Of a stretch of 37,649 bases of DNA, positions 10,489 to 35,706 are shown piece by piece (positions within the stretch are counted from its first letter, which is position 1; the number at the start of each line of letters is the position of its first letter). Source of the DNA: Gulosibacter massiliensis (lineage in GTDB: Bacteria; Actinomycetota; Actinomycetes; Actinomycetales; Microbacteriaceae); the NCBI GenBank assembly GCA_945949175.1, contig CAMFDU010000012.1, positions 1 through 37,649 on the forward strand. The letters are read 5' to 3'. Both the position numbers and the translations under genes were made by a program. The notes beneath the pieces are model-generated. The model was not told the DNA's origin. It saw nothing but the letters and a program-made list of their open reading frames with translations, and did no database searches.

Positions 10489-12081
10489 ATGCCGCGTTAT
10501 GACGTCGACGTTGCGATAATCGGCGGCGGGCACAACGGTCTCGTTGCGGCGGCATATCTAGCCAAAGCTGGAAAATCAGTGGTCGTGCTCGAGCAGCACG
10601 ACGTGCTCGGAGGGGCTGCCATATCAGCACAGTCATTCGATGGCATCGACGCCAAACTATCGCGTTATTCCTACCTCGTGAGCCTGCTTCCCAGACGCAT
10701 CGTCGACGAACTTAGTCTCGATGTCACGACAGCTCCTCGACGCTACGGGTCGTTCACCCCCGCCCCGGACGGAAAGGCTGGTTTGCTGATCGACGAATTC
10801 GACGCCGAAGCCACTGCGCGGTCGTTCGAATCAATCGGTGCGGCTGGCGACTTCGATGCGTGGAACGCTTTTTACACAAAAACCGAGACCATCGCGCAAC
10901 GGTTATTCCCCACGGTTCTGGAACCGTTGAAAACCGAATCGGAAGTGCGGCAATTACTCGGCCCCGAATTGTGGAACGAATTCTTTGTAAGGCCCATCGG
11001 GGAAACAATCGCCGATTCGTTCGAGTCTGATCTCGTGCAGGGCGCCGTGATGACGGACGCACTCATCGGGACATTCGCCTCTAATCACGATGCGGCGCTT
11101 GACGCCAACAAGTGCTTTCTGTACCACGTGATTGGAAACGAAACCGGTGAGTGGAATATCCCCGTTGGCGGGATGGGGGCAGTGACAACTTCGATGGCGG
11201 CGCGTGCGCGGGAACTCGGTGCTGAACTGAAGTCAGGTTGCGAGGTGCTGTCCATTGGCAATCTAGAAGGCTACGCCGCAAGCGACAGTCCCGTTCGAAC
11301 CGTTACCTACCGCCAGGACGGCCAGACCCAATCGGTGTCGGCACGATTCGTGCTGGCCAATGTATCCCGGCCTGTTCTCGAATCACTCCGCGGGCGTTCC
11401 TCTACCCACAATATCGAGGGCGCTCAGGTGAAGGTCAACATGATGCTTCAGCGGTTGCCGAAACTGAAAACAGCCACCGATCCTGTCGCAGCATTCGGGG
11501 GGACCCTCCACATCAACGAGGGCTTCGATCAATTACAGGTAGCTTTCGAACAGGCTGCGGCGGGCGAGATTCCCAACCCGCTGCCGTGCGAGATTTATTG
11601 TCACTCGATTACCGACCCGACCATCCTCGGTGAAACTCTTCGCGAGTCGGGTGCCCAGACTCTGACTGTCTTCGCCCTCCAGACACCTCATTCGCTGTTG
11701 AGGGACACCGACAACGCCGTGATGCGTCAGAAACTTGAAGACGCGGTCATCGACTCCATCAATTCAGTGCTGTCAGAGGACATCCGCGATCTGTTGTTGA
11801 TCGACGCACACGGCAAACCCTGTATCGAAACCAAAACAACACTCGATCTCGAGCACGCTCTTGGATTGCCAGGTGGAAACATCTTCCATGCGCCACTCAG
11901 TTGGCCGTTCGTCTCGGACGACTCGCCTCTTTCGACACCGGCCGAACGCTGGGGTGTCGACTCTGGCGAGCCAGGTATCTTCTTCTGCGGATCAACCGCC
12001 AGGCGGGGTGGTGCAGTGAGCGGCATCGCTGGCCACAATTCTGCGATGGCTGTTCTTGAATCCGAATCGCGTCACGATTAA
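10489..12081 (+). CDS. NAD(P)/FAD-dependent oxidoreductase, phytoene desaturase/PYROXD2-like
   Basis: DVAIIGGGHNGLVAAAYLAKAGKSVVVLEQHDVLGGAA Rossmann motif; C-term GIFFCGSTARRGGAVSGIAGHNSA; start ATG 10489 chosen over track start 10450 which overlaps the upstream gene. Confidence 0.85.
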   Translation: MPRYDVDVAIIGGGHNGLVAAAYLAKAGKSVVVLEQHDVLGGAAISAQSFDGIDAKLSRYSYLVSLLPRRIVDELSLDVTTAPRRYGSFTPAPDGKAGLLIDEFDAEATARSFESIGAAGDFDAWNAFYTKTETIAQRLFPTVLEPLKTESEVRQLLGPELWNEFFVRPIGETIADSFESDLVQGAVMTDALIGTFASNHDAALDANKCFLYHVIGNETGEWNIPVGGMGAVTTSMAARARELGAELKSGCEVLSIGNLEGYAASDSPVRTVTYRQDGQTQSVSARFVLANVSRPVLESLRGRSSTHNIEGAQVKVNMMLQRLPKLKTATDPVAAFGGTLHINEGFDQLQVAFEQAAAGEIPNPLPCEIYCHSITDPTILGETLRESGAQTLTVFALQTPHSLLRDTDNAVMRQKLEDAVIDSINSVLSEDIRDLLLIDAHGKPCIETKTTLDLEHALGLPGGNIFHAPLSWPFVSDDSPLSTPAERWGVDSGEPGIFFCGSTARRGGAVSGIAGHNSAMAVLESESRHD

Positions 12082-12134
12082 CTCGACGAGGTCGGCGTGG
12101 TTGCCGGTCCGGCACCCAACCGTCTGATGGTTAG

Positions 12135-12461
12135 CTAGCAACAATCATCTTTCGCGCGTGATTCGACGTGGACCGCTGCGATAAGCCTTTCACCGGTGGG
12201 CGTAAGAGAAAAATGTGCCCATTTCCCTTTTTGCGTTCGGCTGAGTAGACCGGCATCGACCAATATCTTCATGTGATGACTCACCGTACTTTGCGCGAGG
12301 TTCGTGTCCGGGGTGAGATCGCAGATGCACGCCCCAACAAGACTTTCTTCCCGTGAAATTGTGAGCAAAAGGTTGAGCCGGGTCTCGTCGCCCATCGCTT
12401 TCATCGCCAAAGCAAGTTCGGCGACATTGATGTGATTCGCGTTCTTTTCGATGGTAGCCAT
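12135..12461 (-). CDS. ArsR/SmtB-family metal(loid)-responsive transcriptional regulator
   Basis: ALAMKAMGDETRLNLLLTI, GACICDLTPDTNLAQSTVSHHMKILVDAGLLSRTQKGKWAHFSLT; CxCD metal motif and C-terminal DDCC; likely leaderless ATG 12461 (MATIEKNANH). Confidence 0.9.
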   Translation of the reverse strand: MATIEKNANHINVAELALAMKAMGDETRLNLLLTISREESLVGACICDLTPDTNLAQSTVSHHMKILVDAGLLSRTQKGKWAHFSLTPTGERLIAAVHVESRAKDDCC

Positions 12462-12476
12462 ACGAATAATCATATA

Positions 12477-12534
12477 TTGACATTTATCGATATGAGCATG
12501 CTATATTGATTACAAATCGATAAACTTCGATTTG
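12477..12534 (+). promoter_or_regulatory. Promoter/operator region of Cys-rich micropeptide: -35 TTGACA (12477-12482), -10 TATATT (12502-12507), imperfect palindrome ATCGATAT-N9-ATATTGAT (12486-12510), perfect palindrome CAAATCGA-TAAACT-TCGATTTG (12513-12534)
   Basis: Motifs read directly; A/T-rich palindrome overlapping -35/-10 is typical of ArsR-family operators. 19-bp -35/-10 spacing. Confidence 0.6.
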
Positions 12535-12568
12535 AGAGAAACGGATGTTTGCGGCTGGGAGGTGAACC

Positions 12569-12634
12569 ATGAACAATCTCGACTCGAATCAGAGTAGTGA
12601 TGGCGGTTGCTGCGGCGGCCGCGGTTGCTGCTAG
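12569..12634 (+). CDS. 21-aa cysteine-pair micropeptide MNNLDSNQSSDGGCCGGRGCC
   Basis: ATG...TAG ORF with strong SD GGGAGGTGA (12558-12566), own promoter upstream and intrinsic terminator 11 nt after stop; absent from the supplied ORF track because of length. Confidence 0.6.
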   Translation: MNNLDSNQSSDGGCCGGRGCC

Positions 12635-12645
12635 CAAGTCAACTT

Positions 12646-12692
12646 TGGGGCCCCATTAGTTCTTTGCCGAACTGATGGGGTCCCATTTCTGT
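12646..12692 (+). terminator. Rho-independent terminator: 17-bp stem TGGGGCCCCATTAGTTC / GAACTGATGGGGTCCCA, 6-nt loop, short T-rich tail
   Basis: Arms 12646-12662 and 12669-12685 pair fully with two G-U wobbles; tail TTTCTGT. Confidence 0.75.
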
Positions 12693-12721
12693 CCCAACAG
12701 CCCCAACCGTCTGATTCGTAA

Positions 12722-13534
12722 CTAGATGGTCGGTGTCGAACGGTCCGCGATGAGTTCGCCACCGTTGAACGTGACGCCCAGTTCGCGGTAGTAACCGCCG
12801 AGAACCTTCTCGACGGGAAGTATCGACTTCAGTTCATCCCACTGCGAGTCGTGCAATTCGAGTTCGGCGTCACCCATCCACGGGTCACCGAGTTCGGCGT
12901 CGACACCGCCCATCGCAATCAGTTGGTCAAGCGAGTTTCCGAGCCCCGGCGTGATCGATGGAACCCAACGGCTGTGCAGCATCTTGTGCCCGTTGACGAA
13001 ACCGTTCGTTTCGCTCTTTTCACGCAGTGTGACAACAGCGGACGCGAGGCGGTGGTCGTAGGCGGCGACGCTCGCGCCGAGCTTTGCCCCAGCTTCAAGT
13101 TTCGGGGTGGCCTTGCCATAGTTGAACACGCGCGTGACCGCGATGTTGCCGAGTTTCTTGGGGTAACCCTGAAACCACCCACGACCGATCGCAAAGTCTT
13201 TCGTTACCCAGATAGCAACACAGCGGCTGTACGTGACACCCTCGTATTTGCATCGCACGACGACAAAGGCCTCGAGATATTGCGAACGCACGGGGTCAAG
13301 AAGTTCGGCTCCGCCGGTGCTGCACGACTGCCAGTCGGCCCAAATAATCGCTACGGCGCCGGGGTTCTCGTCGGCCAGTTCGAGTTCAGGAGGGAGGATA
13401 GCGCGAACGTTTTGGGGGTCCGTAAGGTATTCGACCGTGAGCAGCGTACCCGAGTAAAACCAGGGCATCTCGGGCACAAGCGCGCTCTTCCCCGTCGGAG
13501 TCAGCGGGGGCAAGAATCCATTCAAATCAGTCAT
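12722..13534 (-). CDS. Acetoacetate decarboxylase (ADC) family protein
   Basis: YSGTLLTVEYLTDPQNVRAILPPELE, GWFQGYPKKLGNIAVTR; start at ATG 13534 with -10-like TACAGT 7 nt upstream. Confidence 0.75.
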   Translation of the reverse strand: MTDLNGFLPPLTPTGKSALVPEMPWFYSGTLLTVEYLTDPQNVRAILPPELELADENPGAVAIIWADWQSCSTGGAELLDPVRSQYLEAFVVVRCKYEGVTYSRCVAIWVTKDFAIGRGWFQGYPKKLGNIAVTRVFNYGKATPKLEAGAKLGASVAAYDHRLASAVVTLREKSETNGFVNGHKMLHSRWVPSITPGLGNSLDQLIAMGGVDAELGDPWMGDAELELHDSQWDELKSILPVEKVLGGYYRELGVTFNGGELIADRSTPTI

Positions 13535-13668
13535 GAAAGCCACTGTACCGAATCATTCGGAAGCGAACAATCCTTTGACGGGAACGTCGGAAACGACTGA
13601 CACTTGATTGAACCAAAAAGGTGAGTCCCCCTTGCGGTCTGGACAAAACTTCGGCACAGTAGTTAAAG

Positions 13669-13721: not shown

Positions 13722-15260
13722 ATGGCATCAACCAAAGAAGCTGGCGAACTCAGGAAGGGACGTCTCGGTGTAATCGGGATTGTCTTCTTCGTAGTCGCAG
13801 CATCCGCCCCTCTCGTCGGTATGACCGGCGCGGTCCCCGTCGCAATGCTCGTCGGAAACGGTTCAGCCGTACCCGGCACGTATCTCGCGGTTGGCCTTAC
13901 CCTTCTGTTGTTCGCGGTCGGTTATTCCGCCATGAGCAGCCGCGTCACCAACACAGGAGCATTCTTCGCCTACGTTGGTCGCGGTCTCGGCACCAACATG
14001 GGTGTGGCGTCGGCGTTCACGTCGATCCTCGCCTACTCCACGATTCAGCTCGCCATTTATGGCTTCTTCGGCGGTCTTGTTCAAGGCACGATGGCCGGCT
14101 ACGGAATCGACCTTCCCTGGATTGTCTGGTCCGGCATCGCGTGGGTCATCGTCACAGCGCTCTCGCTGATGTCGGTTGACCTCGGTGCAAAGGTTCTCGG
14201 TGTGTTCCTCGTTCTCGAGTTGGCTGCACTGCTTATCGTTGCGGGAGCCATTCTCGCCAACGGTGGACCCGACGGTGGCGTCAACCTTGCCGCATCGTTC
14301 GACCCGAACGCCATTCTCGCCGGCGGACTTACCGGTGCAGCCGGTATCGCCATCGCGTTTGCCTTCGCCTCGTTCATCGGGTTCGAAGCCACCGCAATCT
14401 ATGGTGAAGAGTCATCCAACCCCAAGAAGACCGTTCCGACCGCGACCTACTGGGCCATCGGAATCATCACCGGCTTGTTCGCGATTGTCTCTCTCGCGAT
14501 GGTCACCGGTTACGGAAACGGCATGGTCGATGACGGTGCTGGCGGAGAAATGCCCGCCCTCGTTGCCGCCATCCTCAATGTGACTGCAATCGACGGAGCG
14601 CCGTTGGCGAACCCCGCAGGACTGCTGTTCGACCTTGCCAACACCTACGTTGGACCCTGGATTGTTGGCATCATGGAGATCCTCGTCATCTCGAGCCTCT
14701 TCGCCGGATTGCTCGCGTTCCAGAACGCAACCTCGCGCTACTTCTTCGCAATGGGTCGCGGTGGCGTCCTGCCGAAGTCGTTCGCGTCAGTCAATGGACG
14801 CGGTGCACCCCGCACGGGTGTTTATGCAACGTCGATTCTCGCGATTGCCGTCATGGCAATCTTCTTCATCACCGGTCTCGACCCCGTCCTGAACCTGTTC
14901 TTCTGGATGTCGTCGATTACCGCAGTTGCCGTCATGGTCGTCGAGGTGCTGGTCTCGCTCGCGGTCTTCCGCTTCTTCCGCAAGGAAGGCGGAGTGGGCG
15001 TGTGGAAGAGCACCATTGCTCCGCTCGCCTCGGCAGCACTTCTCGCCGGTGGCGTGTACCTCGTAATGAGCCGCTTCAACCTGCTCGCAGGAACTGCGGC
15101 GGACGGGGTTGACCCGTCGCTCCCGGAAAGCGCGTGGTCGCTCAGCCCCCTCGGCTGGTTCCTCGTGCTCAGCCCCTTCATCGCCGCTGCAATCGGATAC
15201 ATCGCTGCGATTATCAACAAGAAGGAAAACGCCTCGCTGGTCAAGGACATTCTGTCCTAA
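13722..15260 (+). CDS. APC-family amino acid/amine permease
   Basis: 512 aa, about 12 hydrophobic segments; GFEATAIYGEESSNPKKTVPTATYWAI APC signature; SD gaggag. Confidence 0.9.
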   Translation: MASTKEAGELRKGRLGVIGIVFFVVAASAPLVGMTGAVPVAMLVGNGSAVPGTYLAVGLTLLLFAVGYSAMSSRVTNTGAFFAYVGRGLGTNMGVASAFTSILAYSTIQLAIYGFFGGLVQGTMAGYGIDLPWIVWSGIAWVIVTALSLMSVDLGAKVLGVFLVLELAALLIVAGAILANGGPDGGVNLAASFDPNAILAGGLTGAAGIAIAFAFASFIGFEATAIYGEESSNPKKTVPTATYWAIGIITGLFAIVSLAMVTGYGNGMVDDGAGGEMPALVAAILNVTAIDGAPLANPAGLLFDLANTYVGPWIVGIMEILVISSLFAGLLAFQNATSRYFFAMGRGGVLPKSFASVNGRGAPRTGVYATSILAIAVMAIFFITGLDPVLNLFFWMSSITAVAVMVVEVLVSLAVFRFFRKEGGVGVWKSTIAPLASAALLAGGVYLVMSRFNLLAGTAADGVDPSLPESAWSLSPLGWFLVLSPFIAAAIGYIAAIINKKENASLVKDILS

Positions 15261-16145: not shown

Positions 16146-17426
16146 TCAGAAGTAACGGGTCAACACATAGGGCAAAGCCATTGCTATCGGCACGGCAGTA
16201 ACGGGGAGTCCGAAACGGAAGAACTGCCAGAACGAAATGTGTATACCACGGGCTTGTGCGAGCCCGATTGCCACGACATTCGCGCTTGCGCCAATTATCG
16301 TGAGGTTTCCACCAAAGTCTGCGCCAAAGGCGAGTGCCCACCACAATCCGTCATTTCCCGATGGTGGCAAAACCTCGACTAGGTGTTGCACCACGGGAAT
16401 CATGCTCGCGACGTAAGGAATGTTGTCGACAACACCGGATACGAGCGCCGATACGACCACCAACGCGCCCGCCGCCAATCGCGAGTCATCTCCGACGAAT
16501 TCGGCCAATGACTCAGACAAGGCGTCTAACGCTCCGACGTTGACCAGCGCACCAACCATGATGAACAGCCCCGCGAAAAAAACAAGCGTTCCCCATTCGA
16601 CGTCCATCGCAAAATCGGCTGGCTTTAATCCGCTGATTAGAACCAAAAGGCCGGCCCCCATCATGGCGATTAATGAAGGTTCAAGATGCACGACTGAGTG
16701 CAGGACAAATCCCACGACCACGATGGTCAACACACTCACGCTCTTGACGAGGAGTGTGCGGTCGGTGATGAACTTCGCCGGATTGAGTTTGAGGACTGCG
16801 CTACGATCTGAGGCTGTATTGGTCAGTTGTGTGCGGAAAAAGAACAACAACATGGGAATCACAACCACAAGGACCGCGGCCGAAAGAGGTGCCATGTGGA
16901 CAAGAAATTCGTTGAAGTCGAGTCCAGCTTTCGACGCGATGATGATGTTGGGCGGGTCCCCGATCAGTGTTGCCGCGCCTCCAATATTGCTGACAAAGAC
17001 CTCTCCAAGAATGAACGGGACAGGATTGACGCGCAATTTGTCCGCGATGAGGAACGTCATCGGCACGGCCAACAGAATCGTGGTGACATTGTCGAGAATC
17101 GCACTGGCCGACGCCACCAACACAAGAATGTAAACGAACGTGGTTCTCGGGTTTCCCTTCGCCCAGTGGATCGATTTGACCGCGAGAAATTCAAATAGTC
17201 CTGTCTTGTGAATCACGCTGACGATAATCATCATCCCCAGAAGGAGAAAAATGACGTTCCAATCGATTCCCGTCTCGTGGCTGTAGAAAGCACTCGACGA
17301 GTCGGTTGCGCCCAGAAGAATCATCGCGGCGGCTCCTGCCGAAACTACGGCGACCCGATTGAACTTTTCTGACGCAATCAGTGCATAAGCGACGATGAAA
17401 ACTACAGTGGCGGCAATAGTGAGCAT
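16146..17426 (-). CDS. ArsB/NhaD (SLC13-like, ion transporter superfamily) permease
   Basis: Polytopic; SASAILDNVTTILLAVPMTF, NIGGAATLIGDPPNIIIAS, VVDNIPYVASMIPVV, GADFGGNLTIIGASANVVA. Confidence 0.88.
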   Translation of the reverse strand: MLTIAATVVFIVAYALIASEKFNRVAVVSAGAAAMILLGATDSSSAFYSHETGIDWNVIFLLLGMMIIVSVIHKTGLFEFLAVKSIHWAKGNPRTTFVYILVLVASASAILDNVTTILLAVPMTFLIADKLRVNPVPFILGEVFVSNIGGAATLIGDPPNIIIASKAGLDFNEFLVHMAPLSAAVLVVVIPMLLFFFRTQLTNTASDRSAVLKLNPAKFITDRTLLVKSVSVLTIVVVGFVLHSVVHLEPSLIAMMGAGLLVLISGLKPADFAMDVEWGTLVFFAGLFIMVGALVNVGALDALSESLAEFVGDDSRLAAGALVVVSALVSGVVDNIPYVASMIPVVQHLVEVLPPSGNDGLWWALAFGADFGGNLTIIGASANVVAIGLAQARGIHISFWQFFRFGLPVTAVPIAMALPYVLTRYF

Positions 17427-27701: not shown

Positions 27702-27775
27702 TCTATGAGATTACCCGCACCCTTCGACTTTCACGGGGCGGCGCGAACGCTGGGCTGTTAGGAAACGATATGAAA

Positions 27776-27866
27776 AGACCCCTCACGCACCCGCCAGAGC
27801 CGGGTTACCCTTGCTTCGTTTCCGACCTGGGGGAGTTGGCCTGGGTGGCGCCACGCGAGGGGCTGG
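27776..27866 (-). ncRNA. ffs: Small SRP RNA (4.5S-type)
   Basis: Minus-strand GAACTCCCCCAGGTCGGAAACGAAGCAAGGGTAACCCGGCTC-like core: conserved SRP helix 8 CAGGTC-GGAA-GAAGCA; flanking AGCCCCTCGCG / TGCGTGAGGGGTC stem, then TTTT; location upstream of dnaX is typical. Confidence 0.88.
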
Positions 27867-27900
27867 CATCATTCTATGCCCCGAGGGCAATACTGGAACA

Positions 27901-33804: not shown

Positions 33805-35104
33805 ACGCAGCAATGACGTCTCCAATTCGGCCAGAGGCGAACATGATTATTGCCGCCATGAGGAAGACCTGGGTTACGCGCACACGAAGGAACTTGTAGT
33901 TGCGTCCGAGTAGGAGCCGAGTCTTGCGAAATGCGAATTCAACGAAAACGAGAGCAACCGACAACACAAGTGCAATGAGCGTCCCGGTCGGCCATTCGAT
34001 CACGGTTTGAGTCGCGATCGTCGCTTCCGCAAGGGTCGGAACGTGATTCATGATTGTGACCAAGCTGTCAAAACTTGGAGTTCCAAAGATCATGCGCGCA
34101 ACGACCACCGTCGGCGGGAAGATGACGAACGCCCAGAAGGCGTGCTTGCGCTTGAGAAGAGCTATCGACCCGACAAAAATCGCGCCGTGAAGGAATCCCC
34201 AAATCGCGAAGTTGACCGTCATTCCGTGCCACGACGCTGATGCGAGGTAGGTCACCATGACCGCGGCGAAGGTTCCCCACCGTGCGCGGACTGGTTTGTA
34301 AAACAATTCTTTCAACAGAGCGCTCAGTGAAAGGTGCCATCCCTTCCAGAAGTCGAGAATGTTCGCCGCTGAAAAAGGTTGTTTGAAGTTGAGAGGAACC
34401 CGCATTCCAATAATTCCCGCTACCGCATAAACAATGAGTGAAAGCCCGGCAAAGTTGACATAAATGAAAAGCTCAAAGACGATACCGAAGAGAAGACCGG
34501 AAACAAGGTTTAACTGTTCATTGATGGCCAGAGCCGGGGCCAGCCCAAGTCCGAGAACGATGAAGAAGAACACGCCGATGATGAGGAACGGGAAAAAGTA
34601 ATTGAGCCGACCGCGAAGCGACCAGTGCCTCATCGACGCGACCGAGATTGCCAGTGGTCCTGTGGCCAACATCAGCGGGTTCGCGATGTCGAAGGTTCGA
34701 ATGAACGACGCCGAACGACCTTCCATGAGTACCAGATATGCAAGGGACGCCGAATAAAACGAATATCCATAGAGGAACGGGTTAGGAGACGACACCGCAA
34801 GGCCGTTCATGACGCTCATGAAGCCAGTTGCCGTCAGCGCAGCGACGGAAAAGAAAATCAGATAAGCGAAGGTGCGTATTGCGAGCTGTGGCAAGACCCC
34901 GGATCGAACCAGCCCGATGACCAGAACGCTCGCAAGCGCCGGCATCGCAACGTGAACAACGTCTATCCACAGTGCCGATGTGCTCCGATTCGATAACGCC
35001 GACAAGGTTGCCAGCGCTAATCCGGCGAATACAACCAGAGCGAACTGGCTCGCAAAACCGAAACGCGGGACGCCGCGAATCACGGGCGATTTATCCACGC
35101 GCAT
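33791..35104 (-). CDS. MBOAT family O-acyltransferase
   Basis: AANILDFWKGWHLSLSALLKELFYKPVR and LASASWHGMTVNFAIWGFLHGAIF (MBOAT His). Confidence 0.88.
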   Translation of the reverse strand: MRVDKSPVIRGVPRFGFASQFALVVFAGLALATLSALSNRSTSALWIDVVHVAMPALASVLVIGLVRSGVLPQLAIRTFAYLIFFSVAALTATGFMSVMNGLAVSSPNPFLYGYSFYSASLAYLVLMEGRSASFIRTFDIANPLMLATGPLAISVASMRHWSLRGRLNYFFPFLIIGVFFFIVLGLGLAPALAINEQLNLVSGLLFGIVFELFIYVNFAGLSLIVYAVAGIIGMRVPLNFKQPFSAANILDFWKGWHLSLSALLKELFYKPVRARWGTFAAVMVTYLASASWHGMTVNFAIWGFLHGAIFVGSIALLKRKHAFWAFVIFPPTVVVARMIFGTPSFDSLVTIMNHVPTLAEATIATQTVIEWPTGTLIALVLSVALVFVEFAFRKTRLLLGRNYKFLRVRVTQVFLMAAIIMFASGRIGDVIAAYGQR

Positions 35105-35492
35105 CAATCTCAGTGATGAGGTCTTTCACCTTGGTGCGAATCTCGTCACGAATGGGACGAACGCCATCGATTCCGTGTCCGGCCGGGTCATCTAGCGTCC
35201 AATCAAGGTATGTCTTTCCGGGATAGATGGGGCAGGTGTCACCACAGCCCATGGTGATGACGTAATCGGATTCCTTGACTGCCTCGGTGGTCAGGACCTT
35301 TGGGGAGTTGTTGGCGATGTCGATGCCCTCTTCCGCCATTGCCGCAACAGCCGATGGATTAATCTCGTCCTTCGGCTCTGTCCCAGCGGACAGTACCGTG
35401 ACACGGTCACCCGCGAGAGCCTGCAAGTAACCCGCGGCCATCTGCGAACGACCAGCATTGTGAACACAAACAAACAACACCGTCTTCTTCAC
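35091..35492 (-). CDS. arsC: Low-MW phosphatase-type arsenate reductase
   Basis: KTVLFVCVHNAGRSQMAAGYL, GCGDTCPIYPGKTYLDWTLDDPAG; GTG 35492 chosen over 35627. Confidence 0.92.
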   Translation of the reverse strand: MKKTVLFVCVHNAGRSQMAAGYLQALAGDRVTVLSAGTEPKDEINPSAVAAMAEEGIDIANNSPKVLTTEAVKESDYVITMGCGDTCPIYPGKTYLDWTLDDPAGHGIDGVRPIRDEIRTKVKDLITEIDARG

Positions 35493-35496
35493 CGGT

Positions 35497-35706
35497 TCAG
35501 AGGCCTTCTGATTTGCGAAAATGGGCGACAAGCGCGTTGGCATGACCGTGCCCGATGCCGTGCTCAGATTTGAGCCACTCAACCTGCTCTGAGTGCTTCT
35601 TGGAAAGCACGCTTTCAAGAAGCCCAAACCAATGAGTAACCGGCTTGCCGTACTTCTTCTCGATTGACGGGAAATACGATGCAGGGCCCTGAACTTTATC
35701 GCTCAC
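35497..35706 (-). CDS. DUF4287 domain protein
   Basis: 69 aa; GPASYFPSIEKKYGKPVTHWFGLLES...HGIGHGHANALVAHFR. Confidence 0.85.
   Translation of the reverse strand: MSDKVQGPASYFPSIEKKYGKPVTHWFGLLESVLSKKHSEQVEWLKSEHGIGHGHANALVAHFRKSEGL

Follow-up and report, generated by a model that had tools for sequence, protein, structure and literature searches.

An ArsR-linked cysteine-pair micropeptide gene conserved beyond Gulosibacter suggests an overlooked class of arsenic-handling peptides

A 21-codon open reading frame that ends in two cysteine pairs lies divergent from an ArsR-family gene in Gulosibacter massiliensis, which raises the question of whether it is a real gene and what its product might do. 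We analysed a 37,649-nucleotide stretch (the window), a contig of a 1.24-Mb genome that is 94% complete. The reading frame was located at 12569-12634 (+) and encodes MNNLDSNQSSDGGCCGGRGCC, in letter-exact agreement with the preliminary description, with a CC-x4-CC module at the C terminus that is also found in its homologues. The near-perfect Shine-Dalgarno sequence noted earlier, GGGAGGTGA, was found at 12557-12565 (+), and the 17-bp-stem terminator was likewise recovered 11 nt after the stop codon, as a hairpin at 12646-12685 (+) with a loop of 6, a fold z of -5.7 and a sequence partly conserved in the related genus g89; its T-tract (TTTCT) is short. The first downstream gene on the same strand begins at 13722, and an acetoacetate decarboxylase gene on the opposite strand (12722-13543) lies between, which bears out the claim that about 1 kb follows without a co-directional gene. 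The GCCGxxGCC-stop pattern occurred once in the window and in none of 100 dinucleotide shuffles. The coding region also contains a GC-rich hairpin. An Rfam scan of the window found nothing at the locus; its sole match was a bacterial small SRP RNA (RF00169) at 27771-27867 (-).

The promoter of the micropeptide gene carries two candidate operators. The neighbouring ArsR/SmtB-family repressor (12135-12473, -; alternative start ATG at 12459-12461) has an ArsR helix-turn-helix domain and scores above the NCBIfam metalloregulator cut-off. Both the CxCD motif, here CICDL, and the C-terminal DDCC reported for it are present, and the cysteines of CICDL and of the C-terminal CC are candidate As-binding thiols. 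As(III) sites of ArsR proteins are three-cysteine sites (PMC13236881). Operator O1, TTGACATTTATCGA (12477-12490, +), has the form TNGA-N6-TCNA and overlaps the -35 hexamer TTGACA (12477-12482). Operator O2, CAAATCGATAAACTTCGATTTG (12513-12534, +), is the second perfect palindrome of the preliminary description, with 8-bp arms and the core TCGATAAACTTCGA at 12517-12530, and it lies at the presumed start site. The promoter proposed earlier held in part: TTGACA and the -10-like TATATT (12502-12507, +) are in place and TATATT aligns with the g89 homologues, but an automatic sigma-70 scan made no call because the spacer is 19 nt and the scan allows 16-18 nt. The spacer in five g89 homologues is 18-19 nt. 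The window operator occurred once genome-wide with up to two mismatches allowed, and its targets in this genome appear to be the micropeptide gene and arsR only.

The locus was then compared with its equivalents in sister species. The cassette of arsR and micropeptide gene (12072-12722) is absent at the same junction in three of them (G014, G005 and G002), whose flanking genes adjoin directly at the point where arsR, the peptide gene and the terminator occupy about 650 bp of the window; further members of the genus are likewise without the ArsR orthologue. Since these three parts form a clean insertion at one junction, arsR and the peptide gene came, or stayed, together. Near the cassette ends lie two copies of a 24-nt imperfect direct repeat, at 12115-12138 (+) and 12702-12725 (+; 83% identical, overlapping the decarboxylase stop codon), which may be a trace of the insertion. 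An arsC-like arsenate reductase gene (LMW-PTP fold) is present at 35091-35501 (-), 22 kb from the cassette, unlinked to arsR and without the operator; over the match its product is 76% identical to the ArsC of the g89 peptide operon. Its reading frame is open upstream of the ArsC start (35091-35627, -). Neither ACR3 (positive controls run) nor an aquaporin of the g89 type was found in this 94% complete genome. A permease at 16146-17426 (-) is CitMHS/ArsB/NhaD-like and far below the ArsB cut-offs, and its best NCBIfam match, MamN, is also far below cut-offs.

Homologues were sought in 400 genomes of the family with a degenerate tail pattern, which returned three groups of matches. The first comprised 21-aa reading frames ending in GGDGGCCGDTGCC in five species of genus g89, of sequence MIKLNVISGGDGGCCGDTGCC or close variants, divergent from ArsR and with the same position, operators and terminator. 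O1, O2, the -10 region, the Shine-Dalgarno zone and the terminator hairpin could be aligned column by column between the window and g89, and the g89 ArsR is 57-63% identical to that of the window (three copies compared). An independent ArsR search found close ArsR orthologues (85% or more) in g89 only in the five peptide-bearing genomes; two of the remaining three g89 genomes gave no ArsR match and one a 41% relative. Frame and cysteine pairs are thus conserved in 5/5 g89 genomes with a close ArsR orthologue, so that the lack of conservation named in the preliminary description as a ground for refutation was not observed. The tail codons are less variable than the head codons: among the g89 peptides 0 of 10 were non-synonymous in the tail and 4 of 10 in the head. 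The g89 peptide gene is the first of its operon, followed by aquaporin and arsC genes in 4/5 species and by ACR3 in 1/5, and its cysteine codons lie 11-25 nt upstream of the hairpin. A self-contained unit is what the window shows, as do Demequina, Chloroflexota and one soil actinobacterium; in g89, by contrast, the peptide gene heads a longer row of ars genes.

In the second group, reading frames of 13-14 aa such as MDENTGCCGGIGCC directly follow arsC in two Amnibacterium genomes and one further genus. In the third, the same tail letters terminate ArsD, immediately before arsA, in five genomes of the family; the full-length ArsD carrying the tail matches PF06953. The ArsD tails CCGGTGCC and CCGATGCC share C-terminal vicinal cysteine pairs with the micropeptide tail CCGGRGCC. 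At the level of the order, the meaningful matches besides the window were Demequina (contig L153, identical to L103), an HMA-domain protein and an ArsD; the HMA-domain protein, in an order-level relative (L155, 1135-1530), ends in GCCGGGGCC after a cysteine-rich linker. Near the remaining ArsR loci from the family and the order (L003-L031), no CC-rich short reading frame carried the motif.

We further scanned 84,980 genomes (species) for the pattern Shine-Dalgarno, ATG, short gap, CCGxxGCC and stop. Among the 45 matches the ATG was in frame in 20 and out of frame in 25, and an arsR, arsC, arsA or arsD gene adjoined 16/20 of the in-frame but 0/25 of the out-of-frame matches (Fisher P = 7.5e-9, which assumes independence although several matches are close relatives). 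The conserved cysteine pairs among these matches are not independent evidence because the scan pattern required them. Reading frames of 13-23 aa ending in CCGxxGCC occurred in Actinomycetota, Chloroflexota and Verrucomicrobiota. Free peptides came from Amnibacterium, another Microbacteriaceae, Demequina, Naasia, Thermoleophilia, soil actinobacteria and seven Anaerolineales/Chloroflexota; for the Prosthecobacter reading frame (L074) a longer start is possible. Similar peptides adjoin ars genes in several phyla. Two of the 20 in-frame matches are not free but form the ends of larger proteins linked to arsenic, one an Alkalibacterium ArsD and the other an ArsM-like methyltransferase of Planctomycetales; in the latter (L085, 80-1207) the C-terminal DECCGPDGCC equals the micropeptide tail. 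In the Anaerolineales loci (L071, L081, L087, L091, L096, L098 and L101) the peptide gene lies tail-to-tail with an ArsR gene whose product is of the CCCxW type where read; these loci have ATAGA-N6-TCTAT operators and, in several, terminator-like hairpins of their own, and in L081 a glyoxalase/VOC gene is divergent from the peptide gene. Because the partner ArsR proteins place their cysteines differently, the association of peptide and ArsR seems to have originated repeatedly. In viral contigs, relatives of the window ArsR and the exact tail were both absent, and three matches to a looser tail pattern were judged spurious. A distant blastn search of plasmids gave no match for the cassette.

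Operators of the type seen in the window recur in these units. TNGA-N6-TCNA sites, one or two each, were present in 18/18 promoter-proximal units, usually with one over or beside TTGACA and a second 23-40 bp downstream, and in 0/3 units inside operons. The promoter-proximal units held 31 sites compared with 0.8 expected from shuffles, a contrast that overstates the surprise because the motif was defined after part of the set had been viewed. Naasia has both operators but no ArsR inside the locus examined.

These results indicate that the micropeptide gene is real and conserved, and the metal(loid)-chelator reading of the preliminary description is supported by the comparison. We narrow metal(loid) to arsenic because of the ars operon partners, the ArsD tail and the CxCD type of the ArsR. 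Building on the observed conservation, ars linkage, operators, terminator and cassette insertion, we propose, with a probability of about 0.68, that the product is an As(III)-induced thiol micropeptide, in effect a free ArsD tail, that would buffer As(III) or hand it on. ArsR bound at O1, over the -35 hexamer, and at O2, at the presumed start site, would repress both arsR and the peptide gene, and As(III) binding to ArsR would derepress both. The peptide would then be translated from its own Shine-Dalgarno sequence, ending in the Cys-Cys-Gly-x-x-Gly-Cys-Cys module that also terminates ArsD in related bacteria, and its four thiols are predicted to coordinate As(III). Being diffusible, the peptide could serve as a buffer or carrier that lowers free As(III) and helps reset ArsR, and it might hand over As(III) wherever an ars pump or channel is present. 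Where the usual pumps are missing, its role would be As(III) buffering and the resetting of ArsR, and the g89 peptide might additionally feed the aquaporin or ACR3.

The comparison with ArsD bears on which of these roles is favoured. ArsD is an established As(III) carrier to ArsA (PMC6205960), and in E. coli ArsD the chaperone function resides in the N-terminal Cys12/13/18, whereas the C-terminal pairs are linked to regulation (PMC4562236). A free tail therefore need not be a carrier, and buffering or feedback would be at least as likely as handover. The micropeptide resembles ArsD in its ars linkage and in the CC-x4-CC tail at the C terminus, which in Microbacteriaceae ArsD reads, for example, GGCCGGTGCC-stop. 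It differs in having 13-23 aa rather than about 130, often a transcription unit of its own, neither the ArsD fold nor a PF06953 domain, and no counterpart of the N-terminal Cys12/13/18-type site for As(III) handover to ArsA. Solved ArsD chains align only to query residue 100, so the tail lies outside their view. Bacterial metallothioneins are small cysteine-rich proteins under a metal-sensing repressor, a likeness that the micropeptide shares, but it is about half their size or less and has four cysteines in one CC-x4-CC module. No member of the family tested matched a Pfam or NCBIfam model at E values up to 10, including those of the known metallothionein families. We class the micropeptide as neither ArsD nor metallothionein because the defining features of both were looked for and were absent, and regard it as an ars-linked thiol protein; our literature search, mostly outside subscription journals, found no paper on a small cysteine-rich peptide or micropeptide tied to ArsR or ars operons.

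Several other explanations were weighed against the arsenic-peptide reading. Polycysteine short reading frames in mycobacteria act as attenuating leaders, according to the account of Canestrari et al. 2020 given in PMC9094748, and ribosome stalling at TGC TGC could similarly modulate the terminator and the ars genes behind it. The order peptide, hairpin, then aquaporin/arsC or ACR3 in g89 fits a cysteine-responsive attenuator, as does the short distance from its cysteine codons to the hairpin. Like the mycobacterial leaders of that account, the micropeptide gene is a short actinobacterial reading frame with paired cysteine codons near its end; as far as the account goes, it differs from them in its Shine-Dalgarno lead, ArsR operators, ars linkage and frequent lack of a downstream gene. 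An attenuator needs such a gene, and we consider this explanation improbable because several units have none on the same transcript (the window, Demequina L103, the soil actinobacterium L099 and the Chloroflexota loci; g89 alone has one) and some, of the Amnibacterium type, follow arsC. In addition, the window terminator folded without a visible antiterminator partner, and the tail is identical to a tail of the ArsD protein.

Vicinal thiols bind many soft metals, and the peptide could accordingly be a minimal general metallothionein for Cd, Zn or Cu, to which the similar GCCGGGGCC tail of the HMA-domain protein would be congenial. We give this a minor chance, as the partners are arsC, ACR3, arsA, arsD and aquaporin genes and the window ArsR bears the As(III) CxCD motif. 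That the cassette is a relic, what remains of the start of an ars operon of the g89 type after loss or relocation of its pump and arsC genes, would accord with the same arrangement at the beginning of the g89 operon and with the unlinked arsC-like gene at 35091-35501. The intact motif, Shine-Dalgarno sequence, operators and terminator (its stem stronger than that of g89), together with the clean insertion, weaken this reading, and free-standing versions recur in other genomes; we hold it to be quite improbable. The dual-function sRNA and RiPP alternatives raised earlier are unlikely: the strong terminator and the hairpin within the coding region would suit an RNA-only product or a RiPP precursor, but the features shared across phyla are an in-frame tail, a Shine-Dalgarno sequence and a start codon, and the tail codons change less than the head codons. 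Such a product would leave the protein tail shared with ArsD unexplained, and the flanking genes examined included no recognisable RiPP maturation enzyme; we rate its chance as very slight.

The look-alikes beside arsenic genes in unrelated phyla suggest that a class of very small peptides that handle arsenic has been overlooked; gene finders easily miss them because of their size. We put at even odds that there is an unrecognised multi-phylum family of ribosomally made arsenic micropeptides, 13-23 aa long with CCGxxGCC at the C terminus and amounting to free ArsD tails, and that ArsR with such a peptide can make up a complete two-gene arsenic response without its own pump, reductase or methylase. 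Arsenic resistance is commonly viewed as pumping, reduction or methylation; the arsenic-peptide reading, if true, would extend this view of bacteria by a further arm, chelation or handover, and bear on why ArsD keeps a conserved cysteine tail. The module of about 20 residues would also be a candidate As(III)-binding tag, and the cassette a compact reporter. Sinorhizobium meliloti has an arsR-aqpS-arsC operon (PMC6205960) that, like g89, places aquaporin and arsC under ArsR; g89 differs by the micropeptide as first gene, and the window by having just arsR and peptide. At about 1500-1700 of locus L050 (reverse strand), an apparent decayed ArsD begins with MPTIRI and then meets a stop while its cysteine tail is intact, a possible route to free tails.
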